DNA of 64,000 bases from Paracyclopina nana. Its lineage: Eukaryota; Arthropoda; Copepoda; Cyclopoida; Cyclopettidae. The position numbers and the translations under genes are program-made. Location of the stretch: NCBI GenBank assembly GCA_019096065.1, contig JAGUCH010000002.1, forward strand, positions 2,864,501 to 2,928,500, in the 5' to 3' direction. The first letter of the stretch is position 1. Each line of letters starts with the position of its first letter. Shown piece after piece: positions 7,186 to 41,379 of the stretch. A model generated the notes under the pieces. The model saw only the letters and a program-made list of their open reading frames with translations. It made no database searches and was not told the DNA's origin.

Positions 7186-7308
7186 TTCTTTTTTAAAAAT
7201 TAGTACCTGTTGCTCTGTTAGGGAAATGTTCCCTGTTGTTATTAAATTACTAGGTCTTAAATTATAAGACTTTCTTTGTTAATGCTGTTTGCCTAATATT
7301 TGTGGGCA

Positions 7309-7722
7309 TTGCTCCAAACGCAGGCACGGCTCTGATGAGGATGAGGCTTCCTTAAAAAAAATCGCACTTTGCAGAAAGGCTCTCTCGTCAATTTTGGTTT
7401 TAATGATTCCTCATCAGAGGAATGGGCTGCGAGCAATAATCTCGTACAAAGGACTTGCCCCATGTGCGAAGCTGCTTTCCCCCAAACTGTCACCGATGAG
7501 GACTTTGAAATGCATGTCATGGAGCATTTCACTTTCGAGGAGCAAGAAACGCTCAGATATGTACCACATAGCAGCAACGCTGAAAATGGCTACAACTAAT
7601 TCTTTTTTTAAAATAAGTACCTGTTGCTCTGTTAGGGAAACGTTCCCTGTTGTTATTAAATTACTAGGTCTTAAATTGTAAGACTTTCTTCGTTAATGCT
7701 GTTTACTTTATATTTGTGAGCA
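7309..7722 (+). pseudogene. Tandem copy 2 of the zinc-finger gene 3' end
   Basis: A 414-bp unit homologous to 6894-7308, including coding sequence, stop and 3'UTR, in direct orientation. It is nearly identical over the finger (CPMC...FEMHVMEHF), but one base is missing relative to copy 1 in an A-run near 7350-7362, which shifts the frame before the finger. There is no start codon or 5' exon. The upstream bases AAACGCAG could serve as a splice acceptor, so use as an alternative last exon cannot be excluded. Confidence 0.7.
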
Positions 7723-8050
7723 TTGCGCCAAACGCAGACAAGACTCTGATGACGATGAGGCCTCCATTGAAAAAGATCGCACTTTGGGCAAAGGCTCTCT
7801 CGCCAATTTTGGCTTTAATGATTCCTCATCAGAGGAATGGGCTGCGTGTATAAATATTGAGCAAAGGACTTGTCCCATGTCCGAAACTGCTTTCCCCCAT
7901 GCTGTTGCTGATGAGGACTTAAAAATGCATGTCATGGAGCATTTCACTTTCGCAGGGCAAGAAACGCTCAGATATTTACCACAAAGCAGTAAATAGCTGA
8001 TATTAAGTTACTAGGTCTTTTATTATAAGACTTTCTTTTTTAATGCTTTT
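7723..8050 (+). pseudogene. Tandem copy 3 of the zinc-finger gene 3' end, diverged
   Basis: Third direct copy, open in frame from about 7730 to the stop at 7994-7996, but clearly more diverged. The second zinc ligand is changed (CPMS instead of CPMC) and several residues around the finger differ (ADEDLKMHVMEHFTFAGQET), so it probably no longer binds zinc. The repeated 3'UTR block (CTAGGTCTT...TATAAGACTTTC) runs straight into the 3'UTR of the stefin gene on the other strand. Confidence 0.65.
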
Positions 8051-12700: not shown

Positions 12701-13962
12701 CTACGACGAAGGCGTTGAGGAGCATCTCGTTGAGGAAGACGACGAAGACGTGTACACTCTGTCCAAATTGGGCGACCTCATCCACGCGCTGTTTTCCACG
12801 CATAAAGAAGCCTTTTTGCCAGTGTTCGACCAATTGCTTCCCTACGCCTCCAAGCTACTGGTGAGATCCATATTTCTTTAGTTCACTTTTTAGTGTTTAA
12901 TTATTTGTTATTTTTTTCAGGAGGCTGGGCACACTTGGTCAGACCATCAGTGGGGCCTTTGCATATTTGACGACTTGATCGAATACACTGGCGCCTTGTC
13001 CCTGAATTACCAGCAACATTTTATTAGCCAATTACTGCACTACATCACCGATCCGCAAGCCGAAGTTCGCCAGGCCGCAGCTTATGGGTGTGGGGTCATG
13101 GGTGAACACGGAGGGCCCGGATATGCCTCGATGTGCGCTTCAGCAATTCCTCGATTGGTCGAAATCATCCAAGCGCCAAATTCGAGGGAGCCAGAAAACA
13201 TCAATCCCACTGAAAACGCAATCTCAGCAGTGACTAAAATTCTCAAGTGGAACTCGGGCTCCATCAACACTGACGAGGTTATTCCTATGTGGTAAGGAAA
13301 TGTGAAATCGCCTTCAGTCCCATGTCTAACCGCAATTATTTTCTATTCGAGGTTTGGATGGTTGCCAGTGGTTGAAGATGTGGACGAATCCCCTTACGTG
13401 TATGGATACTTATGCGACCTCATTGAGGCCAATCATCCCATCATTTTGGGGAATCAGAATGCCAACATCCCAAAAATTATCGAGATTTTTGCTGAAGCCT
13501 TCTCTTGTGATGCTCTACCACCTTCGCATGCGGTCTACACCAGAATGGTCAACATCACCAGACAAGTACAGGTAAATATCGATTTCCATACCGTTTCAAA
13601 TTGGCGAAGGATTTTTTTGGCGTTGCTTCCATCCTCTTGCTTTCGCTGATCTTGCTGTCTTCTTCTCTAAGTGTGGTGTAAAATTCAAATATGGCTTCAC
13701 TGCAGGATTTCCCAGTTTGGGGATAGTGGGCCATGTTTCTTCCTTCGCTGTTGTCTCGTAAATGTGCTCTTCGTCCTGTTTTCCTTGTTGGGCTCAACTT
13801 AAAGCACGCAGAAGAATTGTGTAATGAATTGCATTTTTGTAGGGAAATGGACAAGTTTTTGAGGCCTGTGTCAATCAGCTGACTGCTACTCAGAAGCAAG
13901 GCTTGAGTAACGCATTAACTGGAACAATGCCGGGTAGCCCTGGAAATTCGAATGCTGGCTAG
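9710..13962 (+). CDS. IPO5: Importin-5 (karyopherin beta-3, RanBP5)
   Basis: Ten exons encode 1105 residues, the normal length for importin-5: 9710-9778, 10036-10415, 10472-10673, 10727-10981, 11044-11358, 11421-11880, 11935-12860, 12921-13291, 13352-13571 and 13843-13962. The protein is an all-HEAT-repeat nuclear transport receptor that carries ribosomal proteins and histones into the nucleus and is released by RanGTP. Near-invariant IPO5 blocks are readable: [80 protein letters not shown] and [12 protein letters not shown]. The acidic insert ([18 protein letters not shown]) is present. Most introns are 50-62 bp; the first and last are about 260-270 bp. AATAAA is at 14372-14377. The sequence is well conserved, which argues against a very fast-evolving lineage. 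Confidence 0.97.
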
Positions 13963-15660: not shown

Positions 15661-18279
15661 ATGAGGAATTTGACGACTCCTTCGCTGCCCAATGCTGGGT
15701 CCAGGCGAGGCTCCAATGCTGGAATTGGTATGGCGTTGGCCAGTCCTAATCAGGCTCGATACAAAGGACTCATTTCAACCCCAGGAATTACCAAATTTTC
15801 TGGATGGAAACGAGAGTCAGACATACCCAAGTAAATCTCCTCATCGTGCGTGGAGGAGGAAAACTGAATGACAATGATTCAGGCTAAGCTTTATGCGGGT
15901 GGGAAAAAACGTTCTTTGTTTTTCAGGCAGTATTTTCACGAGTTCATCTTGCAAAAAATCCGAGAAAAGCCTAATGATCGTGTCTGGATCAAAGATGTTT
16001 CGAATGGCAGATTCGAATTGTTCGGCAATGTTTCCCATGCAGTCACCAAAATTGCTAGTGGACTCACCAAGTTAGGTAAACAAAAATCCAATGAATCTTT
16101 AATGAGCATTTTCTGCAAATTGTACTCTATTAAAGGCTATGGAAAGGGCGATGTCATTTGCATGTTTTGCTCCAATTATGTCGAATATTGGCTGATTGCT
16201 TTGGCTGCTTGGTCCTGTGGAGGATGCGTGATGCCAGTCAACTGCGAATTGGAACCGGATCACCTGGAATCTCAGCTTGGCATTGCCAAAGCCAAAGTAT
16301 AAAAAAACCCTCATTATTTGATAATTAACTATTAGATTGTCTTCAAATAGGTGATTGTGTGTGATGACATGAATGTCTCGGATGCAATTGATGCCCTGGA
16401 ATCTGTGGACAGCCTGAAAACTGTCATTGTCATTGGGAGCACTGCTGACCAAGATTTGAAGAATTGCATGCAAATTGGAGATCTATTAGAGGACGATGGC
16501 AAATCTGCACCTAAACGGCTCGATGCTGACTGGGAACGTCAAACCATCTATTTGCCCTTTTCCTCCACCTCCAGCGGCTCCAAAGGCATTGAACATACTC
16601 ACAAATCCTTGATTTCCAGCTTTTTCTCTCCGGATGGCGCAGCTAATCACTGGTTTGATCAAATCATCGGAGAAAGCATAGGTAAATCTCATTGTCATTT
16701 TTTTCTGCTAGTGACGTGAGATAATAGAGAGTTGTTTTTCCTGGTTATATTGTTATAGTGTGTGGAAATTGGTTCTTCCACATGACTGGGTTGTATAGCT
16801 TTGCCTTATCCGCCATCTATGGCATCACGATGTACACCCAATCAGATTACAGTGACAAAGGCTTACTTGAGGCCATTGTCGACCATAAGGTGGCTGCTGC
16901 TAGTATGTACTCTTGGCAGGTAAAATAGCACCAAATTGAAAAACCAAAAACATTATGCCTTTCCCATTTCAATTTTAGATCAGGATGCTTTCGCAGTCTC
17001 CAGAAGTGAGCCTTTTTGACCTGAGCTGCCTGAAGACCATTATGACAGCTGGCAGCATTTTGTCAGCCACCATCAGAATGGAAGCTATGGAGAGAATTCC
17101 CTCCTTGAGATACATCAGAGAAGCATATGGCTTGAATGAGTGTGGCATTGTCACCCTTTCGTATCCAAGGGAGAAGAAAAATTCCGTCCCTGGCGGCATC
17201 AAAGCTATCGATTTGCCTGATGACCACGTGATGCCTGTAGGCTTGCCTAACATGTTCAGCCAAATCAAAATCATCAATAGGCAAACCTCAGAAGCAGTTC
17301 AAGGCCCAGATGAGCAGGGGGAAATTTGTGTGAAGTCTGCCCAGTGCTTCAAAGGCTACTTAAATGGAGCTGACAACTCCAACATTTTCGACTCTGATGG
17401 ATTTTTTCACACTGGAGACTTGGGCTATTACGATTCTCAAGTACGTATTTCATTAAAAAATTTTTTTTTGGCTTTTGAAACCATTTTTGGTTTTTCAGGG
17501 AGTTGTTTATTTCATCGAGAGCATAGCAAATCTCATTCAATTTTGGATGTATGAAGTGGCGCCCTCCATCTTGGAATCCAGACTTTTGGGCTCAAATAAT
17601 ATAGTGGATGCTGCTGTGGTTGGCATTCCAGACAAAGAAAATGGCCAGGTAATAGTATAGCTTCTGGCACAAAAAGTCTCAGTACAAGGATGGAATTATC
17701 TCATTTTAGGTGCCACGTGCCTTTGTTGTGCTCCGACCTGGCTTTGAAGAGACGGAAGAAAACTTGACGAATTTAATGGAAAGTCGGCTGCAAGATCACG
17801 AAAGAATTAGAGGCGGCCTCTACTTTATTCAGACCATCCCAAGGGACGAAAATTGGAAAGTTCGCCGAGACATCCTCTCCTCGTACGAGCCCAAGAAAGC
17901 AGAAGATTGCACCCTTAATATCTCTGCAGGTATCCCAGGCAACTTGGCTCAACAGATTGCAGAGTCGCCAAAATTGGCCAAACGCATCGCGGTTCAGGAA
18001 CTAGAAAAGCAGGCCAACGGCTCCTTTGTGGCTTCCAATTCTGCTGAGTCAGCCAGCAGCCCCAGAACCAAGAGATCAACTAAAAAAATTGCTGAGAATT
18101 CGGAGAGGCCCAGGAGAGGATCTATGGATTGTATTCTGGAGGACTCCGTCACTGGTGCAGGTGCAAGTATGCTTGCATCTGCAGCTTGTGGCACCAGAGG
18201 AGGCAGGAGAGCCTCCAGGATCCCCAGTGGCTCCAGAGGATCCAGTAGAAGGGGTCAATGGACCAAGAAACCCACTTAA
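15661..18279 (+). CDS. Acyl-CoA synthetase / luciferase-like (ANL superfamily) protein, possibly catalytically altered
   Basis: Eight exons (15661-15830, 15927-16075, 16136-16296, 16351-16681, 16759-16919, 16979-17440, 17499-17648, 17710-18279) give 717 residues. ANL enzymes activate carboxylates with ATP and load them on CoA. Visible motifs are the Ser/Thr/Gly-rich P-loop (STSSGSKGIEHTH), the A5-like YGLNECG, the TGD motif (HTGDLGYYD) and a C-terminal lysine (RDENWKVRR). The linker normally reading DRxKxxIKxxGxxV is IESIANLIQFWMYEV here, so the ribose-binding Asp-Arg pair is lost, and the P-loop ends GIE instead of G-(T/V)-x. After the ANL fold comes a 130-residue Ser/Arg/Lys-rich tail (TRGGRRASRIPSGSRGSSRR) that is unusual for the family. 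No peroxisomal SKL end. Activity is doubtful. A TATAG acceptor-like site ends 9 nt before the ATG. Confidence 0.85.
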
Positions 18280-19034: not shown

Positions 19035-19892
19035 CTAGTAATGATTGAGCATGTCATCAAAGGTCTCATTGAGTTCATCTGAAACCTTCTTGATCTTGAG
19101 CTTCTCGCGGTAGATCTCATCCTCAATGTCATCAATTCTGTGGTTCAGCTTGGTGATGTTCATCTCTCCATACTCATAGCGAGCCTCTGCCTGCTTGAAT
19201 CTCTCCATCAAGTTGTGAATCTTCTCCTTAAGCTTCTCCTCTCTCTCCTGAGCTTTCTCAGCTGAGATCTCAAGCTGCTTCATGTTCTCACCAACTGCCT
19301 CAAGCTCTTGCTCCACATCCTTCAATTTGCTTTCAGCCAACTCGGCCCTCTCATTGGCCCTCTTGAGCTCATCCTCCTGGACACCCAACTTCCTGGTCAT
19401 CTCATCCAGCTTCTGCTCATTGTCACTTGCCATTTTGGTGGTGGCTCTCAAGTTCTTGTCAGCCTCCTCAATCTCCACCTCATTGTTCATGGTCTTGTTC
19501 TCAAAGTACTTGACCTTCTTCAAGATACCATCAGCCTCCTTGGAAGCCATGGCAAGTTTGGTGACAGTGTCAGCCAAGTTGGAATCAGCCTTCTTGGCTT
19601 CCTCCTCCATGAGCATGATACGGCGTGACAGAGCTGAAACTTCCTCCTCTGCATTTTTGAAAGCTTTCTCCTTCTCCTCCAAAGCAGCCAAGGATTTGGT
19701 GAGCTTGTCATTGGTTTCATCAAAATCACACTCATAGCTCTGAATCTTTTTTCCAAAATCCCTGATGTCGCATTCAAACTTGTCCAATGTAGCATTAGAT
19801 TCCTTTGTCTGTGCCTCAAATCTGGCAATTGTGGCCATTAGAGAGTCTGTCTCTGACTTGAGAGACTGCATCTTCTTTCTTATAGCATCCAT
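19035..19892 (-). CDS. Tropomyosin, array copy 1 (most 3' in the array)
   Basis: Uninterrupted 285-codon reading frame for a two-stranded coiled coil that lies head-to-tail along actin filaments and gates myosin access. It starts MDAIRKKMQSLK, the conserved acetylation and overlap end of long tropomyosins, and ends DELNETFDDMLNHY. Copy-specific residues cluster in the first quarter (EAQTKESNATLDKFECDIRDF) and at EIEEADKNLRATTK. Its last residues are NHY, as in copy 8. An acceptor TTTGTTTCAG ends at 19915, 22 nt before the ATG. The 285-residue length is one more than the usual 284; by comparison with remembered protostome tropomyosins the extra residue lies in the C-terminal overlap. Confidence 0.95.
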   Translation of the reverse strand: MDAIRKKMQSLKSETDSLMATIARFEAQTKESNATLDKFECDIRDFGKKIQSYECDFDETNDKLTKSLAALEEKEKAFKNAEEEVSALSRRIMLMEEEAKKADSNLADTVTKLAMASKEADGILKKVKYFENKTMNNEVEIEEADKNLRATTKMASDNEQKLDEMTRKLGVQEDELKRANERAELAESKLKDVEQELEAVGENMKQLEISAEKAQEREEKLKEKIHNLMERFKQAEARYEYGEMNITKLNHRIDDIEDEIYREKLKIKKVSDELNETFDDMLNHY

Positions 19893-20269
19893 GGTGATAG
19901 AGTATTATCAAACTCTGAAACAAAAATCTCAACACATTGAGATCAAAGTCAATTTTTCCTATTTCTTCCCAACTCTCCCTTTATCACCGGACCATTTTGA
20001 AAGTTAATGAAACAGATCATGCAGAATAATTTAAACTTAAGGTCAAGGACAAATGATGATGTACAATAAATTAACCATGAACACCTTGTGGCTTGATGTT
20101 TGCTCACATTCATGTTGTATTGAGCCCCAACTGATCTACCTCAGAGTTTGTAAAGTTGCACACTACAGGAATGGAACATGATACATGCACAGAACATATT
20201 GGATGAGTGGCAGATTAAGGTACAAGTTGGTTAGTGTGGCGTTTCATGATGTTAGAATTGCCAAACAAA

Positions 20270-21127
20270 TTAATAGTTGTTAAGCATGTCATCAAAGGTT
20301 TCATTGAGCTCGTCTGAAACCTTCTTGATCTTGAGCTTCTCACGGTAGATCTCATCCTCAATGTCATCAATCCTGTGGTTCAGCTTGGTGATGTTCATCT
20401 CTCCATACTCATAGCGAGCCTCTGACAGCTTAAACCTTTCCATGAGATTGTAGATTTTATCCTTGAGCTTCTCTTCCCTCTCTTGGGCTTTCTCAGCTGA
20501 GATCTCAAGCTGCTTCATGTTCTCACCAACTGCCTCAAGCTCTTGCTCCACATCCTTGAGTTTACCCTCAGCCAACTCAGCCCTCTCATTGGCCCTCTTG
20601 AGCTCATCCTCCTGGACACCCAACTTCCTGGTCATCTCATCCAACTTCTGCTCATTGTCTCTGGCCATTTTAGTGGTCTCTCTCAGATTTTTGTCAGATG
20701 CCTCAATCTCCACCTCATTGTTCATGGTCTTGTTCTCAAAGTACTTGACCTTCTTCAAGATGCCATCAGCCTCCTTGGAAGCCATGGCAAGTTTGGTGAC
20801 AGTGTCAGCCAAGTTGGAATCAGCCTTCTTGGCTTCCTCCTCCATGAGCATGATACGACGAGATGATGCAGAGACCTCTTCCTCAGCATTCTTGAATGCC
20901 TTTTCCTTTTCCTCAAGAGCAGCCAGAGCCTTGGTGAGTTTGTCATTGGTTTCATCAAAGTCGCACTCATATCCTTGAATCTTCTTTCCCAAATCCCTGA
21001 TGTCACACTCAAAGTGATCATTCTTGGCATTTGATTCTTTTGTTTCATTCTCAAATCTGGCAATTGTTGCCATCAATGAGTCAGTCTCACCCCTAAGGGA
21101 CTGCATCTTCTTCCTAATAGCATCCAT
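20270..21127 (-). CDS. Tropomyosin, array copy 2
   Basis: Intronless 285-codon tropomyosin. The variable N-terminal stretch reads RGETDSLMATIARFENETKE followed by SNAKNDHFECD, the middle has EIEASDKNLRETTKMARD, and the end is FDDMLNNY. It is the near-twin of copy 3; the two share almost all substitutions and long stretches of identical DNA in the coding region, while the spacers around them look unrelated. An acceptor (TTACTTTCAG) ends at 21145, 17 nt before the ATG. Distance to copy 1 is 377 bp. Confidence 0.95.
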   Translation of the reverse strand: MDAIRKKMQSLRGETDSLMATIARFENETKESNAKNDHFECDIRDLGKKIQGYECDFDETNDKLTKALAALEEKEKAFKNAEEEVSASSRRIMLMEEEAKKADSNLADTVTKLAMASKEADGILKKVKYFENKTMNNEVEIEASDKNLRETTKMARDNEQKLDEMTRKLGVQEDELKRANERAELAEGKLKDVEQELEAVGENMKQLEISAEKAQEREEKLKDKIYNLMERFKLSEARYEYGEMNITKLNHRIDDIEDEIYREKLKIKKVSDELNETFDDMLNNY

Positions 21128-21477
21128 TGTTGCTTAAAACCGTTCTGAAAGTAATTTTAATGAAAAGTAATCCACAGGGGTGATTAGCATGTTATTCATC
21201 AGGGATCAAACAAATGCAAAAGCTAAAATTCAAGCAGAAAATGATGCAGTGGCTTTTACGAGATAAAATGCTAACACCTATTTACTCATAAATTGCTCAA
21301 GGATACTGTATTCAATCCCACTGGTGTAATTTAAAACAACATACTAATCTTGTGTTTTTATCATCTAAATGTGAATGGAACATGAAACATGAAATGTGCA
21401 GTGATGTGTTAGAGTCATTATAAAACCTAACTCAATCATATTAGTTGACTAGAGCTGATCTTTTCAACTTAAAATTC

Positions 21478-22335
21478 TTAATAATTATTGAGCATGTCAT
21501 CAAAGGTTTCATTGAGTTCATCTGAAACCTTCTTGATCTTGAGCTTCTCACGGTAGATCTCATCCTCAATGTCATCAATCCTGTGGTTCAGCTTGGTGAT
21601 GTTCATCTCTCCATACTCATAGCGAGCCTCTGACAGCTTAAACCTTTCCAACAAATTATGAATTTTCTCCTTGAGCTTCTCCTCTCTTTCTTGGGCTTTC
21701 TCAGCTGAGATCTCAAGCTGCTTCATGTTCTCACCAACTGCCTCAAGCTCTTGCTCCACATCCTTGAGTTTACCCTCAGCCAACTCAGCCCTCTCATTGG
21801 CCCTCTTGAGCTCATCCTCCTGAACACCCAACTTCCTGGTCATCTCATCCAGCTTCTGCTCATTGTCTCTGGCCATTTTAGTGGTCTCTCTCAGATTTTT
21901 GTCAGATGCCTCAATCTCCACCTCATTGTTCATGGTCTTGTTCTCAAAGTACTTGACCTTCTTCAAGATGCCATCAGCCTCCTTGGAAGCCATGGCAAGT
22001 TTGGTGACAGTGTCAGCCAAGTTGGAATCAGCCTTCTTGGCTTCCTCCTCCATGAGCATGATACGACGAGATGATGCAGAGACCTCTTCCTCAGCATTTT
22101 TCAAGGCTTTCTCTTTTTCCTCCAGGGCTGCCAAGGCTTTAGTCAATTTGTCATTGGTTTCATCAAAGTCACACTCATATCCTTGAATCTTCTTTCCCAA
22201 ATCCCTGATGTCGCACTCAAAATGGTCATTTTTTGAGTTAGATTCTTTTGTTTCATTCTCAAATCTGGCAATTGTGGCCATCAACGAGTCAGTCTCACCC
22301 CTAAGGGACTGCATCTTCTTCCTAATGGCATCCAT
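21478..22335 (-). CDS. Tropomyosin, array copy 3 (near-twin of copy 2)
   Basis: Intronless 285-codon tropomyosin. Compared with copy 2 it differs at only a few residues that I can find: NSKND for NAKND, KALKNAEE for KAFKNAEE, and KEKIHNLLERFK for KDKIYNLMERFK. The heptad pattern is unbroken from end to end. An acceptor (TTACTTTCAG) ends at 22368, 32 nt before the ATG, and matches the acceptor of copy 2 over at least 10 nt, so the duplicated unit probably included sequence upstream of the gene. Distance to copy 2 is 350 bp. Confidence 0.95.
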   Translation of the reverse strand: MDAIRKKMQSLRGETDSLMATIARFENETKESNSKNDHFECDIRDLGKKIQGYECDFDETNDKLTKALAALEEKEKALKNAEEEVSASSRRIMLMEEEAKKADSNLADTVTKLAMASKEADGILKKVKYFENKTMNNEVEIEASDKNLRETTKMARDNEQKLDEMTRKLGVQEDELKRANERAELAEGKLKDVEQELEAVGENMKQLEISAEKAQEREEKLKEKIHNLLERFKLSEARYEYGEMNITKLNHRIDDIEDEIYREKLKIKKVSDELNETFDDMLNNY

Positions 22336-22731
22336 TTTTCTGTGTTTGGGTTATTGACTAGTTGCGTCTGAAAGTAATTTGTATTTGTGATTTTTGTTAA
22401 GTTAAGGTCACAGAAGCATTTATGAAGGTAATCAAACGTATTTAATTATTTTAATTGTATTAGCCTGAAGCTTGTTTATTTTTTGTGATGAAACACGTTG
22501 GCAATTCTGGCTTGTAGTTGGTTGAGGGTATCAGCCATATATTACTTAAATAAGTCTAACCAAGCAAAGGCTTCATATGCATCTATTAGGCTAGAATGGA
22601 ACATTTTATGTAATACAAAAAAGTTAGCTGCAAATTGTTAGCAAAAAGAAGGTGGGTTGTAAAATGTGTTAATGGTTTCTAGAAGGACTAAATTGAGGTA
22701 ATTATTTCTGGCTCTCCAATGCATTCTGCTT

Positions 22732-23589
22732 TTAGTAGTTGTTCAGCATGTCATCAAAGGTTTCATTGAGCTCATCAGAAACCTTCTTGATTTTCAGCTT
22801 CTCACGGTAAATTTCATCTTCAATATCATCAATCCTGTGGTTCAGCTTGGTGATATTCATCTCTCCATATTCATATCTAGCTTCTGATTGCTTAAACCTT
22901 TCCATGAGGTTATGAATCTTTTCCTTGAGCTTCTCTTCTCTCTCTTGGGCTTTTTCAGCTGAGATCTCAAGCTGCTTCATGTTCTCACCAACTGTTTCCA
23001 ATTCTTGCTCAACATCTCTCAGCTTACCCTCTGCAAGCTCAGCTCTTTCATTGGCTCTCTTCAATTCATCCTCTTGGACACCCAACTTCCTGGTCAGCTC
23101 ATCCAGCTTCTGCTCATTGTCACTTGCCATTTTGGTAGTCTCTCTCAAGGTTTTATCAGATGACTCAAATTCCACCTCATTATTCATGGTCTTGTTCTCA
23201 AAGTACTTGACCTTTTTTAAGATACCATCAGCCTCTTTTGAAGTGCTTGCAAGTTTAGTGACAGTTTCCGCTAAATTAGAGTCAGCTTTCTTAGCCTCTT
23301 CCTCCATGAGCATTATTCTTCTTGAAGATGCAGACACCTCCTCTTCAGCATTCTTAAAGGCTTTCTCTTTCTCCTCAAGTGCTGTCAAAGCCTTTGTGAG
23401 CTTGTCATTGGTTTCATCAAATTCCACTTCATAGCCCTGAATTTTCTTGCCCAAGTCTCTGATGTCACATTCATGTTTTTCCAAAATGGAATTCGAATTT
23501 TTAGTGTCGGCCTCAAATCTGGCAATTGTGGCCATCAAGGAGTCAGTCTCACCCTTGAGAGATTGCATTTTCTTCCTAATTGCGTCCAT
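22732..23589 (-). CDS. Tropomyosin, array copy 4
   Basis: Intronless 285-codon tropomyosin with ADTKNSNSILEKHECD in the variable N-terminal part, YEVEFDETND instead of YECDFDETND (shared with copy 5), LAETVTKLASTSK, and the middle block EFESSDKTLRETTKMASD with ELTRKLG and GKLRDVEQELETV. This middle block is almost identical at DNA level to that of copy 6, though copy 5 lies between them, which looks like gene conversion. Acceptor ends at 23620, 30 nt before the ATG. A TTTATT (minus-strand AATAAA) at 22475-22480 could be its poly(A) signal. Confidence 0.95.
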   Translation of the reverse strand: MDAIRKKMQSLKGETDSLMATIARFEADTKNSNSILEKHECDIRDLGKKIQGYEVEFDETNDKLTKALTALEEKEKAFKNAEEEVSASSRRIMLMEEEAKKADSNLAETVTKLASTSKEADGILKKVKYFENKTMNNEVEFESSDKTLRETTKMASDNEQKLDELTRKLGVQEDELKRANERAELAEGKLRDVEQELETVGENMKQLEISAEKAQEREEKLKEKIHNLMERFKQSEARYEYGEMNITKLNHRIDDIEDEIYREKLKIKKVSDELNETFDDMLNNY

Positions 23590-23948
23590 CTTTTTTTATT
23601 TTCGTTGGTCTGGCAAATTCTGAAAGAATTTCTTCTTATTAGCTTGGGGTAATCTACAAAGTTATCAATGAAGTTATATTTTATGTTAAGAGATAAGTTA
23701 TGCGGTTCAAGCAATCAAATATTAAAGAAGAAGGGGTAAAAGCATAAAAATTACGAAGCGTTTTGGCAAGAGCAGGAAAGCAAAGCAAAGAAAGGGATTT
23801 TTTCAGCGCGTGCACTATCTAAAGAAAGGGACATGGTGACTAGCCTATGCTACAAGCAAGACCATCTGATGATCCTAGGAATGTGTATTATATCCTATGA
23901 TTGAGCAAGACAGCAAATGGACCAATTCAATTGTAGCAAGCAGAGTTT

Positions 23949-24806
23949 TCAGTAGTTGTTGAGCATGTCATCAAAGGTTTCATTGAGCTCATCTGAAACC
24001 TTCTTGATCTTGAGCTTTTCCCTGTATATTTCATCCTCAATGTCATCAATCCTGTGATTGAGCTTAGTGATATTCATCTCTCCATATTCATAACGAGCCT
24101 CAGATTGCTTGAATCTCTCCATAAGGTTATAGATTTTATCCTTGAGCTTTTCCTCTCTTTCTTGAGCTTTCTCTGCTGAGATCTCAAGTTGTTTCATGTT
24201 CTCACCAACAGTTTCTAGCTCTTGTTCAACATCCTTAAGTTTACTCTCAGCAAGCTCTGCTCTCTCATTGGCTCTCTTCAATTCGTCTTCTTGTACACCG
24301 AGTTTACGGGTAATCTCATCCAGCTTCTGCTCGTTGTCTCTGGCCATCTTGGTGGTTTCTCTCAAAGTTTTATCTGATGCCTCAATCTCCACCTCATTGT
24401 TCATGGTCTTGTTCTCAAAGTACTTGACCTTCTTCAAGATACCATCAGCCTCCTTGGAAGCCATAGCTAGCTTGGTGACAGTATCAGCTAAGTTAGAGTC
24501 AGCCTTCTTGGCTTCTTCCTCCATCAGCATGATTCTTCTGGACAAGGCAGACACCTCCTCCTCTGCATTTTTGAATGCTTTCTCTTTTTCTTCCAGAGAA
24601 GTCAAAGCTTTGGTGAGCTTGTCATTGGTTTCATCAAATTCTACCTCATAGCCTTGAATTTTCTTGCCCAGATCACGAATGTCACATTCGTGCTGGTCTA
24701 GCCTGGCATTGGACTCTTTTGTATCCGACTCAAATCTAGCAATAGTAGCCAAAAGAGAGTCTGTTTCCGACTTTAGTGACTGCATCTTCTTTCTAATAGC
24801 ATCCAT
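23949..24806 (-). CDS. Tropomyosin, array copy 5
   Basis: Intronless 285-codon tropomyosin. Variable region ESDTKESNARLDQHECD, then YEVEFDETND as in copy 4, EIEASDKTLRETTKMARD as a mix of copy 2/3 and copy 4/6 features, and the unique EITRKLG. C-terminal sixty residues match the other copies. An acceptor (TTTTTTCAG) ends at 24828, 21 nt before the ATG. Distance to copy 4 is 359 bp. The mosaic of shared substitutions supports exchange between array members. Confidence 0.95.
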   Translation of the reverse strand: MDAIRKKMQSLKSETDSLLATIARFESDTKESNARLDQHECDIRDLGKKIQGYEVEFDETNDKLTKALTSLEEKEKAFKNAEEEVSALSRRIMLMEEEAKKADSNLADTVTKLAMASKEADGILKKVKYFENKTMNNEVEIEASDKTLRETTKMARDNEQKLDEITRKLGVQEDELKRANERAELAESKLKDVEQELETVGENMKQLEISAEKAQEREEKLKDKIYNLMERFKQSEARYEYGEMNITKLNHRIDDIEDEIYREKLKIKKVSDELNETFDDMLNNY

Positions 24807-25148
24807 CTTGCTGACTTTAAAGGGTCACTGAAAAAATTGTCCTAATTAGTTTGTGGCAGAAGTTATGGGTGGGAAAGTAAAGCTCTACTTTTAAAGGGAT
24901 CACGCCAAAGGGTAAAAAATTTAATTTATTGTAGATTAATCAAAGTTAATTTATGTGGATGTTGCTGAAACCAGAGCCCTCTCTTAGTTTTCCTACAGTA
25001 GCCTAGAAGCCTGAAACGCTATTAATTGCGAAGATATGTATTGACACTCCTTTAGAAGAATATACATTCGCTTGCAATGGTCATGGCTGTTGAGTTTAAG
25101 CTGTGAATGTTTGCAGTATTGTGTTTGAAAAGGTTGAATGTTGGATGT

Positions 25149-26006
25149 TTAATAATTGTTAAGCATGTCATCAAAAGTCTCATTCAGCTCATCAGAGACT
25201 TTCTTAATTTTGAGCTTCTCCCTATAGATCTCATCCTCAATATCATCAATCCTATGGTTGAGCTTGGTGATATTCATCTCTCCATATTCATATCGAGCCT
25301 CAGCTTGCTTGAATCTTTCCATGAGGTTATGAATCTTTTCTTTGAGCTTCTCTTCTCTCTCTTGGGCTTTTTCAGCTGAGATCTCAAGCTGCTTCATGTT
25401 CTCACCAACTGTTTCCAATTCTTGCTCAACATCTCTCAGTTTACCCTCTGCAAGCTCAGCTCTTTCATTGGCTCTCTTCAATTCATCCTCTTGGACACCC
25501 AACTTTCTGGTCAGCTCATCCAGCTTCTGCTCATTGTCACTTGCCATTTTGGTAGTCTCTCTCAAGGTTTTATCAGATGACTCAAATTCCACCTCATTAT
25601 TCATGGTCTTGTTCTCAAAGTACTTGACCTTCTTCAAGATACCATCAGCCTCCTTGGATGCATTGGCCAATTTTGTGACAGTATCAGCCAAGTTTGAGTC
25701 AGCTTTCTTTGCCTCTTCCTCCATAAGCATAATTCTCCTGGACAATGCTGATACTTCCTCCTCAGCATTCTTGAATGCCTTTTCCTTTTCTTCAAGTGCA
25801 GCCAAAGCTTTGGTTAGCTTGTCATTGGTCTCATCAAAGTCACATTCATAAGTTTGAATTTTCTTGCCCAAGTCACGAATATCACATTCATGCTGGTCAA
25901 TCTTGGCATTAGATTCTTTGGTGTCAGCCTCAAACCTAGCAATTGTAGCCAACAGTGAGTCAGTTTCTGACTTCAGAGACTGCATCTTTTTCCTGATAGC
26001 ATCCAT
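25149..26006 (-). CDS. Tropomyosin, array copy 6
   Basis: Intronless 285-codon tropomyosin. N-terminal variable region EADTKESNAKIDQHECD with IQTYECDFDETND, and LADTVTKLANASK in the first half; the middle block (EFESSDKTLRETTKMASD through EKIHNLMERFK) is nearly the same as copy 4. It differs from copy 4 on both sides of that block. An acceptor (ACTTTGCAG) ends at 26036, 29 nt before the ATG. A TTTATT near 24925 could serve as poly(A) signal. Distance to copy 5 is 342 bp, the shortest spacer in the array. Confidence 0.95.
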   Translation of the reverse strand: MDAIRKKMQSLKSETDSLLATIARFEADTKESNAKIDQHECDIRDLGKKIQTYECDFDETNDKLTKALAALEEKEKAFKNAEEEVSALSRRIMLMEEEAKKADSNLADTVTKLANASKEADGILKKVKYFENKTMNNEVEFESSDKTLRETTKMASDNEQKLDELTRKLGVQEDELKRANERAELAEGKLRDVEQELETVGENMKQLEISAEKAQEREEKLKEKIHNLMERFKQAEARYEYGEMNITKLNHRIDDIEDEIYREKLKIKKVSDELNETFDDMLNNY

Positions 26007-26477
26007 AATGGCTTAGTGTATTGTAGCTGTCACAACTGCAAAGTATTGAAAATATGTCACAAAAGTTGTACCATGCCATTGTTATTCTATAATACTAGGG
26101 TAAAACAAAAAAACCGGGTGCAGTAAATAAATTTATGATTTTAAGTCTGGAAGTTGGAGCCTGACGTATGGTGATACTCATTTATACAGTTTTTAGCCTT
26201 AAAAGGACACTAGACGTGGTTTCCATGCTTTTTAAATTTGCTTTTATCATCAATTGAGTAGAAAAGCCCCTTCTTTTATAGTGTTAGTTTGCACACAAGA
26301 AAAGCAACGCACATAAAATGCTTTTGACGTATGTAGATGCTGGAACATATGAGTTTGCAGTTGGGCTGTGATGTATTTTTAGTACAATCATACAAATATG
26401 TTGCAAGAACTCAAATGATGGCTTATTGTACGTATAAAGAGGTTTTGGCAGACAGAGAAGGTAAGGGTAGTAGCAGT

Positions 26478-27335
26478 TTAATAGTTGTTCAGCATGTCAT
26501 CAAATGTCTCATTGAGTTCATCTGAGACTTTCTTGATCTTGAGCTTCTCACGGTAGATTTCATCCTCAATGTCATCAATCCTATGATTTAATTTGGTGAT
26601 GTTCATCTCTCCATATTCATACCTGGCTTCAGCATGCTTGAGCCTCTCCATAAGTTGATGAATCTTGTCCTTCAATTTCTCCTCTCTCTCTTGAGCCTTC
26701 TCAGCAGAAATCTCAAGCTGCTTCATGTTCTCACCAACTGCTTCAAGCTCTTGCTCAACATCTCTTAGCTTACCTTCAGCAAGCTCAGCTCTCTCATTGG
26801 CCCTCTTCAACTCTTCCTCTTGCACTCCACATTTCCTTGACAATTCATCCAACTTTTGCTCATTGTCACTGGCCATTTTTGTGGTTTCTCTTAGATTCTT
26901 GTCAGCCTCCTCAATCTCCACCTCATTTCTCATTGTTTTGTTTTCAAAATACTTCACCTTTTTCAATATACCATCAGCTTCCTTTGAGGCCATGGCTAGT
27001 TTGGTAACAGTGTCAGCAAGGTTAGTGTCCGCCTTTTTGGCCTCTTCCTCCATCAACATTATCCTTCGTGAGAGAGCTGATACCTCCTCTTCAGCATTTT
27101 TGAAGGCTTTCTCCCGTTCCTCCAGAGTAGCAGTGACTTTGGTGAGTTTGTCATTTGTCTCATCAAAATCACACTCATAGTTTTGAATCTTCTTTCCAAT
27201 ATCACGAATGTCACATTCGTATTGGTCTAGCCTTTGATTGGCTTCTTTTGTCTCATTCTCATACTTTGCTATAATGGCATGAAGTCCATCCGTCTCAGAC
27301 TTGAGAGATTGCATTTTCTTGCGGATAGCATCCAT
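26478..27335 (-). CDS. Tropomyosin, array copy 7
   Basis: Intronless 285-codon tropomyosin forming a subgroup with copy 8. Shared subgroup features are AKYENETKEAN, TMRNEVEIEEADK, and ELSRKCGVQEEEL, which places a cysteine in the middle of the rod, as in many animal tropomyosins. Own features are TDGLHAIIAKYE, RDIGKKIQNYE, EEREKAF and KIHQLMERLKHAEARYE. An acceptor (GACTTCCTGCAG) ends at 27352, 16 nt before the ATG, the shortest leader in the array. Distance to copy 6 is 471 bp. Confidence 0.95.
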   Translation of the reverse strand: MDAIRKKMQSLKSETDGLHAIIAKYENETKEANQRLDQYECDIRDIGKKIQNYECDFDETNDKLTKVTATLEEREKAFKNAEEEVSALSRRIMLMEEEAKKADTNLADTVTKLAMASKEADGILKKVKYFENKTMRNEVEIEEADKNLRETTKMASDNEQKLDELSRKCGVQEEELKRANERAELAEGKLRDVEQELEAVGENMKQLEISAEKAQEREEKLKDKIHQLMERLKHAEARYEYGEMNITKLNHRIDDIEDEIYREKLKIKKVSDELNETFDDMLNNY

Positions 27336-27705
27336 GGCGGCTGGCTAGTTGCTGCAGGAAGTCAAAAGTCTCTAATCAGCATCACATTACAAACAAAGGA
27401 CAAGAAAAAAAAGCAGGACAAGAAACAACGAAAATGTCTATATATATACAATTAGTAAAATGAGCTTACAAGTAGTGCTAGAATATTAATATAGAAACAT
27501 GAATCACATTCTATCTGTAGTCGGCCCAGCAAAATTGTCGTTCAATGATTGAATTATGCAAACATGATTCATAGTCATGCTTAGATGTTTATTGACTTAA
27601 AAAAGCCTCCCTCATTGTGTGCACAGGTAGTGGTTGGTATAGATTGTGGTGTGTGTTTTGCCCCAAATGTAAATTGTGACTAGTTTTACGATCTATTGGG
27701 TGTTT

Positions 27706-28563
27706 TTAATAGTGGTTAAGCATGTCATCAAAGGTCTCATTGAGCTCATCTGAAACCTTCTTGATCTTGAGCTTCTCACGATAGATCTCATCCTCAATAT
27801 CATCAATCCTATGGTTCAGCTTGGTAATGTTCATCTCTCCATATTCATATCTAGCTTCAGCAAGCTTGAATCGGTCCATAAGATTCCAAATCTTTTCCAT
27901 TAGCTTCTCCTCCCTCTCTTGAGCCTTCTCAGCAGAAATCTCAAGCTGTTTCATATTTTCACCAACAGCCTCAAGCTCTTGCTCAATATCTCTCAGTTTG
28001 TTCTCGGCCAACTCTGCTCTCTCATTGGCTCTCTTCAGTTCTTCCTCTTGCACTCCACATTTCCTGGAAAGCTCATCCAACTTCTGCTCATTATCGCTTG
28101 CCATCTTGGTGGTCTCCCTCAAGTTTTTATCAGCTTCTTCAATCTCGACTTCATTCCTCATGGTCTTGTTTTCAAAGTACTTCACCTTTTTCAAAATACC
28201 ATCAGCCTCCTTGGAAGCCATTGCAAGTTTGGTGACGGTATCTGCCAAGTTAGTATCTGCTTTTTTAGCCTCTTCCTCCATCAGCATGATCCGCCTAGAC
28301 AAAGAAGATACTTCCTCCTCAGCATTTTTGAAAGCTTTTTCCTTTTCTTCAAGGGCAACAGATGCCTTGATCAGCTTATCATTGGTTTCATCAAAGTCAC
28401 TCTCATAGTTTTGAATCTTCTTACCCAAGTCTCGAATGTCACAATCATACTTGTCAGACATAGAGTTAGCTTCCTTTGTCTCATTTTCATACTTGGCAAT
28501 TGTGGCAAACAATTGATCAGTTTCTCCTTTGAGAGACTGCATTTTCTTCCTGATGGCATCCAT
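27706..28563 (-). CDS. Tropomyosin, array copy 8
   Basis: Intronless 285-codon tropomyosin, sister of copy 7 (both carry KCGVQEEEL and TMRNEVEIEEADK). Own features: TDQLFATIAKYE, SMSDKYDCDIRD, KLIKASVALEEKE, ENKLRDIEQELEA, and a tryptophan in KIWNLMDRFKLAEARYE, which is rare in a tropomyosin rod. Ends NHY. An acceptor (TTACAG) ends at 28606, 42 nt before the ATG, the longest leader in the array. Distance to copy 7 is 370 bp. Confidence 0.95.
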   Translation of the reverse strand: MDAIRKKMQSLKGETDQLFATIAKYENETKEANSMSDKYDCDIRDLGKKIQNYESDFDETNDKLIKASVALEEKEKAFKNAEEEVSSLSRRIMLMEEEAKKADTNLADTVTKLAMASKEADGILKKVKYFENKTMRNEVEIEEADKNLRETTKMASDNEQKLDELSRKCGVQEEELKRANERAELAENKLRDIEQELEAVGENMKQLEISAEKAQEREEKLMEKIWNLMDRFKLAEARYEYGEMNITKLNHRIDDIEDEIYREKLKIKKVSDELNETFDDMLNHY

Positions 28564-29098
28564 GCTGGTTTTTCTGTGTTTTCAGTTGGGGGTTCTGAGT
28601 GCCAACTGTAAATGGAGAGGGTGTTACAACAACAATGGTGAGGTGGCCTGTTAGTTTCCTAATGACATTCATTTGGGATCATTGCATAATTGCAGACACC
28701 AAATCAAAAGTGGCTGGACGCTGATGCCACTAGTAGCTTGGGGCATCAAATGTCCTGCTCGCAAAAAAGTAATCAAAAGAAACAAAAAGAGAAACCTTAT
28801 CTTTTGGACAACAAAAGAAAACTTCTATCAGATATTCCTAGCAAATTGTGTCTTGTGCAAAAACTACTACTTAGTTCAATGACTCGGCAAACAACATTGA
28901 CAAAAGAACAAAGCCATGCATATGTACCATAGTGTGTAATATTTAAAAAGGAGTGTATACTATGTAGGTAGACTTTTCTCACCAGTTGAGATTGTACTTT
29001 TATTGTAGTAGTAGATCATTGCCATCATTTCATGTGTAATATTAGTAATTGAAGTAGGGGTGTGTTAATAATATATGTTAAAAAGAGTGCAGCATCCT

Positions 29099-29956
29099 TC
29101 AGTAGTTGTTGAGCATGTCATCAAATGTCTCATTGAGCTCGTCAGACACCTTCTTGATCTTGAGCTTCTCCCGATAGATGTCATCTTCAATGTCATCAAT
29201 CCTATGGTTGAGTTTGGTGATGTTCATTTCTCCATATTCATAGCGAGCCTCAGCATTCTTCAGTTTGACAATCAGAGCATGAATATGCTCCTTGAGCTTC
29301 TCCTCTCTTTGCTGAGCCTTCTCCGCAGAAATCTCAAGCTCTTTCATGTTTTCACCGACAGACTGCAGCTCATTCTCCAATTCAAGAATCTTTGTCTCAG
29401 CAGTGGAAGCTCGTTCATTGGATCTCTTGCACTCTTCTTCCTGAACTCCCAACCTCCTTGACATTTCATCCAATTTTTGCTCGGAGTCGTTAGCCATTTT
29501 CTTGGTTTCTCGTACAGTTTTATCCAATTCCTCAATCTCAACCTCATTCCTCATGGTTTTGCTCTCATAGTGTTTGACCCTCTTCAAGATTGCATCAGCT
29601 TTCTTGGAAGTTATGGCCAAATCAGTGACAGTGTTGGCCAAGTTGTTTTCAGCTTTCCTCACTTCTTCCTCCATCAATGCTTGCCTTCTAGTCATGCCAT
29701 TGACATCCTCCTCAGTGGTCTTGAGAGTTTTCTCAGTCTCCTCCAGCTTGGACAGAGAAGCCACTAGCTTGTCATTGGTAGTGTCGTAGTCAGACTCCAA
29801 AAGGTTGATCCTCTTTGAAATTTCACGTACATCACTCTCACATTGAGTGGCCACGTCATTTGCCCTCCGAGTTTCTTCTTCGAAATTTCGAATTTGGTTG
29901 ATGAGAGCATCAGTCTCAGATTTGAGGCTCTGCATCTTCTTCTTGATGGCGTCCAT
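29099..29956 (-). CDS. Tropomyosin, array copy 9 (most diverged, 5' end of the array)
   Basis: Intronless 285-codon tropomyosin; the open frame runs 42 codons further upstream, but MDAIKKKMQSLK fixes the true start at 29956, and an acceptor (TATTCACAG) ends at 29985, 28 nt before it. It is the outlier of the array: NQIRNFEEETRRANDVATQC, VREISKRINLLESDYDTTND, VNGMTRRQALMEEEVRKAEN. The last fifty residues (ARYEYGEMNITKLNHRIDDI through FDDMLNNY) are still almost identical to those of the other copies, so this end is either strongly constrained or homogenised. The KKK start is closer to canonical animal tropomyosins, so it may be the founder. Confidence 0.95.
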   Translation of the reverse strand: MDAIKKKMQSLKSETDALINQIRNFEEETRRANDVATQCESDVREISKRINLLESDYDTTNDKLVASLSKLEETEKTLKTTEEDVNGMTRRQALMEEEVRKAENNLANTVTDLAITSKKADAILKRVKHYESKTMRNEVEIEELDKTVRETKKMANDSEQKLDEMSRRLGVQEEECKRSNERASTAETKILELENELQSVGENMKELEISAEKAQQREEKLKEHIHALIVKLKNAEARYEYGEMNITKLNHRIDDIEDDIYREKLKIKKVSDELNETFDDMLNNY

Positions 29957-29985
29957 GTTGTTATTTTGTGTAAGGGTTGGAGAAC

Positions 29986-32919
29986 TGTGAATATGTGAAC
30001 ATCTTAGGGACTGAACAAAAATTGCTGATGAACCAAAAAGGGGCCAGATTATTTCACTTTTGTAGTTGTTGTTTAAAAACATGGTTTAAGGTAATTTGTC
30101 GTCTTGAAGCACCTTTAGCCTCAGCTCAGTCATTGTGCGAGCTTTTGGGGGCTAAAGTGTTAATAGAGCCACTGCAGGCAAATGACATACGTTTAGTGTT
30201 GTACTGGATAAAAGGGGCCTTTTATGAAATGCAAAAGGATTTCTTGCTATTTATGCAGGTTTAAATGGGTTTGAGACATCTCTCTCCATGATTTTTACCA
30301 CCCCAACCAACTTCATTTATCTTCTTCTTCTCTCTTCTTCAGCTACCATTTTCTTCGTACATAAGCCTAATATACTGTATTTTGCATCCCCCTAAGCATA
30401 GCATATAGTATGTATAGATCCTTTTCTAGCCTTAATAGCTTATCAATGCAACCTTTGCTTGGCCTCATGTTTCATAGGAAGAAAGTTCTACTAAGGAATA
30501 GTAAAAGTTTTTTATGTAAGCATGCATCAGTTTCATGGTCTATTTTTTTAAAGATGAAGAATAAGGAATACATTGATACATATGTAGTATGTAGTGACAA
30601 CAACAGGAACTATATATGAATAACATCACGGCAAAGGTGTGTGTATATTCAGTCTCTCTTTAATTTTTTTCTGTACATAGAATTCATGGTGATTTTGGTA
30701 TATTTTTTGATGTTTCAAAATGAAGGCTCAAGTTTTTTGCCTGAATTTTTTTCAAATAAAGATGGACACTCAAGCAAAGCATCAAGTAAAAGTCGTATTT
30801 TGTGGAGTAAGTTTGCGCAGGAAACCAGTTAAAATGAAATTGAAGTCTGCTGGCTTGATTTAAGGTGAGGCAAAACAAACAAAACTTATAGTTTCTTGGT
30901 CAAGTATTATTTTTAACATTTGTTTAAAATACTTCTCCTACTCAACCAATGCCTGTCTTCTCAAAACTTGATGACATAACTGAAAATGGCAGCTGTTGAC
31001 GCATACCAGTCAAGTTTGTTTACTTAAAAGTGGGCGCGAAAATTCAAAACTCCCAAAATGCCCAAATTCCCAAATTGAGTTTTTTCCCCTCAATTTCTTG
31101 CTGAAAATTAGCAGAGTTTTTTCTCAATTTCTCAATTTGAAAGCTTGGAAAGCTCGTTTTGTGTGCTAGGGGAGGGCGATCCAAAAATATCCACATTAAG
31201 TGACACGAGGTCTTCGATTGGCCAGTGTCCAACATCAAGAACTTTCTCAAGGACTTTTCAGGCAGAAATGATTTCAAGATGATGCTCTCAAACCCTGATG
31301 ATAAAAATAGTCCAGCCCAGTTTCACCCTTGTCATGCACAAAAATACAAGCTGGTTGCATGCATCAAGGCCTGGAGTGAAGTCGAGCTGGTTTTTTAAGG
31401 CACTGAAGCTTTTTTATCTAAGGATTCTAAGGTGCAGTTAGGGTCTCGTATTTTAGCGTCGTCATCTGTGTGTATTTTGTGTAATAGAACAAATACAGGC
31501 ACAGAAGTTGGGTAGCAAAGTGGCATAAAAGTACCTGGAGAAAACATGAGGATTTGGCAAAGGGAGCAATTAACTACTGCAGCGCATGTATTTCCATCTA
31601 CTCATTAGAAGTAGATTTCATAGAGCTCATCGGAAGTAAAAAAAAGGATTAATAAGCAGCATGGATGGAGCAAAAATGGAGATTAAGCTAACTACAGCTT
31701 TGTAGTCACCACTACTACGTATACACTAATGTATCCCAATCATCATTTATAATATGACCTTTTTTCTCTCTCACTTTTTGTACATCATTCTTTTTTGCTC
31801 TTATCTTTAATTTTGTTTAAATATCTTGGTGGGGAGGGCATGATTCATATAATATATATATTGTATAATATATTTAAACTGAATAAACATTTGATTAAAC
31901 GATACGTTTTGTTGCTGCCGAAAATGTGGATGACATACCTGAAAAGTTGAGCCGCAAAAACCGAGGAAAGAAGATGGAGTTGAAGAAGGCTGAGTTCACA
32001 GGTGAACCTTTGAGTCTCAACTAGCCAACAAGATGGATATTTGAGTTTAAAGAAAGCTTGGATAAGTAGTAAATGACCTGACACCGAGCCAAGCTTTCCT
32101 ATTGTGTGCCTGACTAGGGCTTCCAAAAGAAAAGCCATATAAAAAATTTTTAAAGAAAAATAAGCAAAAAGATTTCATGCTCAACATTTCAATACTATTT
32201 ATTTTTATTATGGTGGCCTTTGAAAGTTGATAAACATTTCATCATTTTGATGCAGCAGCTGAAAATGTAATTTTGGCTCCTAAAAGTGCATCTTTAAAAG
32301 ATGTTAATCAATACCACTCAATGTTAATAAATATATGTCAAAAACTAAAAACCTAAGAGATATCATCTTTTAACCTTTTTAGAAGTGAAAAGAATTATGA
32401 AATATGAAGCACTGGAGCTCTATCATGCATGTCACTTTCAGGTCAGAATTTTTTGGAAAGTTCTTGCTGAATTAGAATAGATGCTACTACTATGCTACAG
32501 CTTTTCTGTCCTTGCTGCTGGAGTTGCCAACATTCTTTGCTGCTTTCCATTTTCACTTCAGCAGTAATTGAGGTCACAAATCAGGTCCAAGTCCTAGCCA
32601 TGCTTCTTTATGCTACATGGATTATTTGTGGGCTCCTTTTTAAGCAGCTTTGCATCTATACATTCAATGCAATAAGGTTTTGCTTTCACAACGTATGCAC
32701 AATCCCACAAGCCATTCATGATTAATGCGTAAGCTCGTGTTCAACAAGCCACACGAAGATCTTGTTATTTTTTTTTCCTTTCAAAAATTGGGAATTTTCA
32801 ATGGCAAAGCTGCATGACTTGTTTTCTCAAAATGAAAACTCTTCCTCGTTGTAGTTGCAGCAGCTCAGTCACATCTCATAAACTAGATCTATTACCAAGT
32901 CTCGTGATTCGTGGCCAAA
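29986..32919. other. Intergenic region with no gene seen
   Basis: About 2.9 kb, AT-rich. Near 30207-30228 it holds an A-run/GGGGCC/T-run palindrome-like stretch (AAAAGGGGCCTTTTAT), whose minus strand offers CATAAAAGG as a possible TATA box for the tropomyosin array. Short frames here show no domain or composition that I would call coding. Confidence 0.45.
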
Positions 32920-40778: not shown

Positions 40779-41379
40779 ATGGGAACGAATGGGGAGCGTC
40801 ACGACTCCAATGGAGATGTGACTGAAGACAATGATGACGAATTGGAGGATGATCTTCATGATCCCATGGAGGACATCATCGATGACAACACAGAGGAAAT
40901 CCTTGCTCAAGATCGAGAATGGAACCAATTCGACGAGATCATTGGCTGCATAGAAGACATTGTCATCGAGCAGCAGTTCCAGGACTTGCAAGAGTCCTTT
41001 TTGGAGGCGAATTATGAGCACTTCGAAATTGGGACCGAGGAGAACAAGCTCATTTACATGGAGATCTTCCAAGAATATACCAAGGCTGTGGAGGAGTTCA
41101 TTGAGAGGGAACTAGAAAAGAGAATTGACAACTTTTCCATGAAGGACTTCATCAAAGGTGAGATTATAGGCAATTGTCGCCAGGAACAGTCTAAAATGGT
41201 GGCCTTTTTTCCATTCAGAGCTGGAAGAGCGGAAATTGGATTTGGAAGGTGAAGTCTTTGACATGCTCTTCACTTTGACAGACTTTTTGGCATTCAAGGA
41301 GATGTTTGTGGCCTACAAAATAGCCAGACAATCCTCATCAGTGCCCTTGCAAGGCATTTTATCCGTCACATCGCTCTAA
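40779..41379 (+). CDS. ARL2BP: ARL2-binding protein (BART)
   Basis: Two exons, 40779-41157 and 41219-41379, encode 179 residues. The BART domain is clear: FDEIIGCIEDIVIEQQFQDL, FEIGTEENKLIYMEIFQEYT, then after the intron FDMLFTLTDFLAFKEMFVAY, and the C-terminal VTSL seen in vertebrate ARL2BP. ARL2BP binds GTP-loaded ARL2 and ARL3, small GTPases of tubulin folding, mitochondria and the ciliary base. The first 45 residues are an acidic extension (DVTEDNDDELEDDLHDPMED) not found in short vertebrate forms. An acceptor-like TTTTTTTAG ends 9 nt before the ATG. Confidence 0.92.

Follow-up and report, generated by a model that had tools for sequence, protein, structure and literature searches.

The DNA considered here is a window of 64,000 nucleotides (G000:C2:2864501-2928500) from an assembly of 92 Mb, which consists of nine large scaffolds (6.3–17.8 Mb) and one of 0.27 Mb. 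It contains nine tropomyosin open reading frames (ORFs), all on the minus strand, which follow one another head to tail from position 19035 to position 29956 of the window. Each is 858 nt long (285 sense codons plus the stop codon), none has an internal stop codon or a coding intron, and all nine loci exceed the cut-off of 38.6 bits for PF00261 (Pfam Tropomyosin). ORFs and PF00261 thus bear out the first-pass annotation, which had described nine intact, intronless tropomyosin genes of 285 codons each on one strand. The array had been said to end at 29985; the start codon of the most upstream gene, g9, is at 29956, however, and 29985 is the first base of an acceptor-like hexamer (29985–29990). 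A longer frame of 327 amino acids in g9 runs through this hexamer, and it is the ATG aligned with those of the other eight genes that gives 285 codons. The genes are:

19035..19892, minus strand, tropomyosin gene g1, most downstream copy (ORF, PF00261)
20270..21127, minus strand, tropomyosin gene g2 (ORF, PF00261)
21478..22335, minus strand, tropomyosin gene g3 (ORF, PF00261)
22732..23589, minus strand, tropomyosin gene g4 (ORF, PF00261)
23949..24806, minus strand, tropomyosin gene g5 (ORF, PF00261)
25149..26006, minus strand, tropomyosin gene g6 (ORF, PF00261)
26478..27335, minus strand, tropomyosin gene g7 (ORF, PF00261, PDB alignment)
27706..28563, minus strand, tropomyosin gene g8 (ORF, PF00261)
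29099..29956, minus strand, tropomyosin gene g9, most upstream copy and earliest branch of the array (ORF, PF00261, tree)

None of the nine proteins contains proline, and each, with 285 residues in a single heptad register, is predicted to form an uninterrupted two-stranded coiled-coil rod. In g7 the heptads are continuous (67 hydrophobic residues at positions a and d in one register, 42 in the next best), and the alignment of its protein with PDB tropomyosins spans residues 1–282. With the canonical tropomyosins of animals (TPM1, arthropod Tm1) the array proteins share a full-length rod near 284 residues, the start MDAI(K/R)KKM, the heptads and PF00261. They differ in being one residue longer and in being encoded by nine tandem genes without coding introns, of which the canonical gene has seven.

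Protein identity is 85.0–98.3% among g1–g8 and 65.7–68.5% between g9 and the rest. Divergence at synonymous sites (dS) is above 1 in 26 of the 36 pairs, beyond the range of the formula in six and below 1 in four (g1-g2 0.75, g1-g3 0.57, g2-g3 0.27, g4-g6 0.85), while divergence at nonsynonymous sites (dN) reaches at most 0.261. Since 32 of the 36 pairs have a dS above 1 or undefined at so low a dN, the copies are old paralogues under strong purifying selection, and neither assembly nor allelic copies. An assembly or haplotype artefact might have been suspected from the gaps at some scaffold ends. TTAGG repeats fill 7 of the 14 scaffold-end stretches examined, and two of the remaining ones are N. 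The window itself is without N, however, a separate search recovered all nine genes at one place on one scaffold, the eight spacers (342–535 nt) can hardly be aligned (mean column identity 35%) and silent sites are saturated. The saturation led us to reject a collapsed or chimeric assembly, the chance of which we regard as negligible. The array is thus real, and it is unusual. No tropomyosin array of this kind was found in a search of the open-access literature. Known processes can account for the array, namely the loss of introns (probably through retroposition), duplication in tandem, selection and gene conversion.

The differences among the copies are unevenly spread along the rod. Variable residues were counted in g1–g8 and binned by the exon segments of the canonical gene:

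residues 1–38: 16 of 38 variable
residues 39–80: 13 of 42 variable
residues 81–124: 6 of 44 variable
residues 125–164: 7 of 40 variable
residues 165–213: 8 of 49 variable
residues 214–234: 8 of 21 variable
residues 235–285: 2 of 51 variable (3 of 51 when g9 is included)

Residues 1–80 thus carry 29 of the 60 variable sites, although the first 11 residues are nearly constant across the array. The differences had been placed at residues of about 12–50, which is the right region, but the stretch extends to about residue 75; a variable block in the middle of the rod, also proposed, is weaker than a second one at about residues 226–240. By heptad position the variable sites are distributed as c 14, d 13, f 10, e 7, g 6, a 5 and b 5. 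Positions d of the core vary too, and a surface-only pattern is not concluded. That the last fifty residues are nearly invariant even in g9 was seen correctly. In this tail (235–285) the proportion of differing nonsynonymous sites (pN) is 0.015 and that of synonymous sites (pS) 0.577 in g1–g8 (0.018 and 0.615 with g9), from which it follows that the tail is held constant by purifying selection on the protein. The same pS of 0.577 rules out gene conversion as the cause.

In parts of the middle rod, gene conversion has indeed been at work. Copies that lie further apart in the array are also more distant in sequence (Mantel r 0.41, p 0.007 with all nine genes; r 0.39, p 0.024 with g1–g8 only). 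Superimposed on this trend, two pairs of otherwise saturated paralogues have blocks of near-identity. Thus g2 and g3 differ at 27 sites in nucleotides 1–237 of the coding sequence (CDS), at 2 in 238–647 and at 15 in 648–855; g4 and g6 differ at 83 sites in 1–375, at 2 in 376–665 and at 25 thereafter. In a run test on silent sites, based on shuffles, g4-g6 (0 of 2000 shuffles), g1-g6 (p 0.0005) and g2-g3 (p 0.0010) are significant after Bonferroni correction over 28 pairs, which g1-g5 (p 0.0030) and weaker pairs fail. The tracts are:

20481..20890, minus strand, conversion tract in g2 (CDS nt 238–647, with g3)
21689..22098, minus strand, conversion tract in g3 (CDS nt 238–647, with g2)
22925..23214, minus strand, conversion tract in g4 (CDS nt 376–665, with g6)
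25342..25631, minus strand, conversion tract in g6 (CDS nt 376–665, with g4)

Some tract ends lie near the canonical exon borders 80, 124 and 213 (codons 80 and about 215 in g2-g3, codon 126 in g4-g6) and other ends do not; a coincidence with these borders was judged by hand not to be significant and was rejected. Patchy gene conversion thus homogenizes parts of the middle rod, so that the diversity of the array, which had been put down to gene amplification, does go back to tandem duplication but not to divergence alone. Tandem arrays of structural genes, for example of muscle actin and myosin light chain, are kept in step by conversion. The tropomyosin array resembles them in its head-to-tail copies, its conversion tracts and the strong purifying selection; it differs in that conversion is patchy and that the N-terminal quarter (residues 1–80) is left divergent, also at silent sites (pS 0.74–0.76).

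On another scaffold of the assembly (G000:C1, about 5.401–5.406 Mb) there is also a canonical tropomyosin gene, whose coding sequence is interrupted by seven introns. In residue/phase notation these are 38/0, 80/0, 124/2, 164/0, 213/0, 234/0 and 257/1. The gene holds second versions of exons 2, 4 and 6 and, as judged by eye, apparently a second last exon, so that it would still encode tropomyosin diversity by splicing. With these duplicated exons present, the array comes on top of alternative splicing; that amplification takes the place of splicing, as the first-pass annotation had suggested, is not supported. The canonical protein is 59.8% identical to vertebrate TPM1 (part compared), and the array proteins are 41–45% identical to the canonical protein and 38–41% to TPM1. 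The arthropod-like canonical tropomyosin and the TTAGG telomeres identify the host as an arthropod, perhaps a crustacean. There are further relatives with introns of their own:

G000:C7, about 5.912 Mb, relative C7 (L009), introns 42/0, 139/1 and 237/2
G000:C2, about 10.971 Mb, relative C2b (L013), introns 139/1, 185/1 and 237/2
G000:C2, about 8.799 Mb, relative C2c, introns 89/2 and 208/0

The introns of C7 and C2b, which have 139/1 and 237/2 in common, are short and non-canonical and are candidates for intron gain. In a maximum-likelihood tree of 14 sequences (array, C2c, C7, C2b, canonical gene and vertebrate TPM1) the array and the three relatives separate from the canonical gene and TPM1 with a support of 98.3/98. 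The nine array genes form a single clade (99.2/99), from which g9 splits off first, and g1–g8 group together (98.8/99). A single frame of 194 amino acids related to tropomyosin (C3:2653612) was set aside, as was a low-complexity repeat found in the genome search (C1:15688511).

How did the array lose its introns? When all introns disappear in a single event, reverse transcription is the usual cause, and it is the absence of all of them that favours a retrocopy as founder. A spliced canonical mRNA was probably reverse-copied into the genome, which would have given a founder without any of the seven coding introns. Its descendants would have spread to three or more further loci, some gaining introns later at new places, and one would have been amplified by tandem duplication to the nine genes. 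Selection preserves the first 11 residues (the head) and the final 51, with residues 12–75 or so free to diverge and patches of the middle rod being copied between paralogues by gene conversion. Functional retrogenes can later gain introns or recruit an exon of the 5' untranslated region (5'UTR), and they are usually single. The array resembles them in that the parental introns are all absent, an intron-bearing parent exists on another scaffold (G000:C1), the frame is intact and relatives have new introns; it differs in its nine-fold amplification and in the persistence of at least three dispersed relatives. We consider it likely that these genes form a lineage-specific family of functional full-length tropomyosins that arose in this way, by a retrocopy founder and then by tandem duplication, selection and conversion. 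The sequence of retrocopy and tandem duplication had already been proposed, and it is supported by the multi-exon canonical gene and by relatives without canonical introns.

Alternatively, a DNA duplicate of the canonical gene may have shed its seven introns singly, for example by recombination with partial cDNAs, before tandem duplication began. Intron turnover is visible in the tropomyosin family of this assembly, and the introns 42/0 and 237/2 of C7 are only about 11–12 nt away from the canonical 38/0 and 234/0, so that they could be introns that have slid. In such a stepwise loss, however, survivors would be expected somewhere in the clade, yet none of the eight introns of the relatives matches a canonical one in position and phase (the alignment is nearly gapless), and 139/1, 185/1, 89/2 and 208/0 are at least five codons away from any canonical intron found. 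Piecemeal loss therefore appears unlikely to us. The data are read most simply as an intronless founder, some of whose descendants acquired new introns; a gain of 139/1 and 237/2 at the base of the clade and their later loss in the array would fit too.

It should be noted that several points weigh against the retrocopy reading. Piecemeal loss would leave an identical array, and at this divergence a poly-A tract and a target-site duplication are expected to have decayed. The intron models are spliced alignments, not transcripts. The branch of C2c is very long (1.51) and its placement (94.3/92) may be an artefact, and the tree includes one outgroup and no other arthropod. As to expression, codon adaptation to three actins is 0.547–0.677 in the array, 0.649 in the canonical gene and 0.402–0.482 in the dispersed relatives, with a mean of 0.397 and a maximum of 0.456 for 300 random synonymous versions of g7; but an unrelated BART-domain ORF scores 0.576, and codon adaptation hardly speaks for high expression of the array.

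Upstream of each gene there is an acceptor-like hexamer (YYNCAG), which in all nine lies wholly inside the last 48 nt before the ATG, 16–42 nt upstream:

19915..19920, minus strand, TTTCAG, 22 nt before the ATG of g1
21145..21150, minus strand, TTTCAG, 17 nt before the ATG of g2
22368..22373, minus strand, TTTCAG, 32 nt before the ATG of g3
23620..23625, minus strand, TTTCAG, 30 nt before the ATG of g4
24828..24833, minus strand, TTTCAG, 21 nt before the ATG of g5
26036..26041, minus strand, TTGCAG, 29 nt before the ATG of g6
27352..27357, minus strand, CTGCAG, 16 nt before the ATG of g7
28606..28611, minus strand, TTACAG, 42 nt before the ATG of g8
29985..29990, minus strand, TCACAG, 28 nt before the ATG of g9

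In successive bins of 45 nt upstream the hexamer is present in 8, 0, 1, 2, 2, 0 and 2 of the nine genes. With a chance of 0.13–0.17 per 45 nt the probability of at least 8 of 9 is about 7e-7 to 6e-6, the bin having been picked after the sites were seen. Such a hexamer ahead of every ATG of the array, in most cases lacking a good donor, is a new observation, and it likely reflects splicing in the 5' leader, either cis or trans. E-boxes are found in 8 of 9 array spacers (no control set) and MEF2 sites in none of the nine.

The hexamers raise the question of whether the nine genes could be one operon-like transcription unit, whose precursor would be cut by spliced-leader trans-splicing at these sites. 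Besides their presence before every ATG, it is in favour of this that the best donors are poor in six of nine cases (low in the random distribution, empirical p 0.75–0.98), that GTRAG occurs in only three of nine spacers and that spliced leaders are reported from calanoid copepods (PMC4664967). A position matrix built on 23 of this genome's introns gives the acceptors only modest scores, however (empirical p 0.037–0.334), and in g8 and g9 it prefers other AGs. Among the control genes the hexamer likewise precedes 2 of 7 actins and 4 of 14 histones (duplicates and non-histone motif matches removed from the latter), and before two of four other tropomyosin genes. Within the 220 nt examined after each gene, AATAAA follows only g8 and g9; AATACA or AATATA follows g2–g7. 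Two of the actins (L039, L040) resemble by eye genes with ordinary short 5'UTR introns, which makes cis splicing from an untranslated exon a live alternative. In five alpha-tubulin genes an intron, as judged by eye, directly follows the ATG, which makes them unusable as controls for leader acceptors. Two published copepod leader stretches, of the six in the table of PMC4664967, gave no match at up to three mismatches, and a 960-nt piece of the 5S repeat showed by eye no obvious leader gene, an unbiased search for leader genes not having been made. We are therefore doubtful about an operon-like unit. The 5S rRNA genes form a tandem cluster (G000:C1:926140-927100) with the listed matches about 471 bp apart, and each unit appears by eye to have a second, diverged 5S-like copy. 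Among the actin genes, a pair at G000:C4:2049272-2050252 (minus) and 2058582-2059562 (plus) is divergent and about 8 kb apart; several others, among them those at C5:2.29 Mb, C2:6.81 Mb and C7:2.42 Mb, consist of one uninterrupted frame each.

The other thin-filament genes deserve a comparison. Seven Troponin matches were found in the genome. The troponin I loci on C9 (about 5.857 Mb) and C6 (about 5.528 Mb) have the introns 17/0, 58/1, 92/0 and 106/2 (query numbering) in common; a troponin I-like locus at 16.864 Mb of C2 (G000:C2:16864070-16864453, minus strand) is one frame of 143 codons without these four introns, which is a new observation, and a fourth locus (C3) gave a poor model only. 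The locus on C2 is possibly another retrocopy of a thin-filament gene.

Elsewhere in the window, ORFs at 16985–17554, 3501–4181, 11979–12881 and 40779–41252 match AMP-binding enzyme, Fasciclin, Importin repeat and BART, and one at 63253–63912 has a match below the cut-off to a vanadium chloroperoxidase domain. A tandem repeat with a 414-bp unit (6894–7989; 2.6 copies, 91% matches) overlaps an ORF at its end, and this ORF has an autophagy-receptor zinc finger. Scans of the window for tRNA and Rfam families gave no hit.

Tropomyosins bind actin cooperatively and polymerize head to tail, their ends overlapping, and in the array both protein ends, heads and tails, are nearly constant in sequence. 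The array proteins most likely provide thin filaments with dosage and with a variety of isoforms, beside the alternatively spliced canonical gene. One may go further and think of a second, reverse-copied thin-filament kit: at least 12 tropomyosins from one founder without the canonical introns, nine of them co-transcribed, together with a troponin I likewise stripped of introns, the rods being shuffled by conversion between fixed ends. The data allow such a co-transcribed kit, which goes beyond what they demonstrate, and we think it improbable. If it existed, whole genes would play in it the part that the choice of exons plays in other animals.

In textbooks tropomyosin exemplifies how alternative exons give rise to a variety of isoforms. 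In this genome two routes exist side by side, a spliced gene whose exons are partly duplicated and nine separate genes with fixed ends and a variable front quarter. If the founder had no introns, as seems probable, the introns at new positions in the relatives would be a dated case, within one family, of intron gain after total intron loss. The array also offers a natural experiment on where the rod tolerates variation and on whether gene amplification and exon choice serve different tissues.

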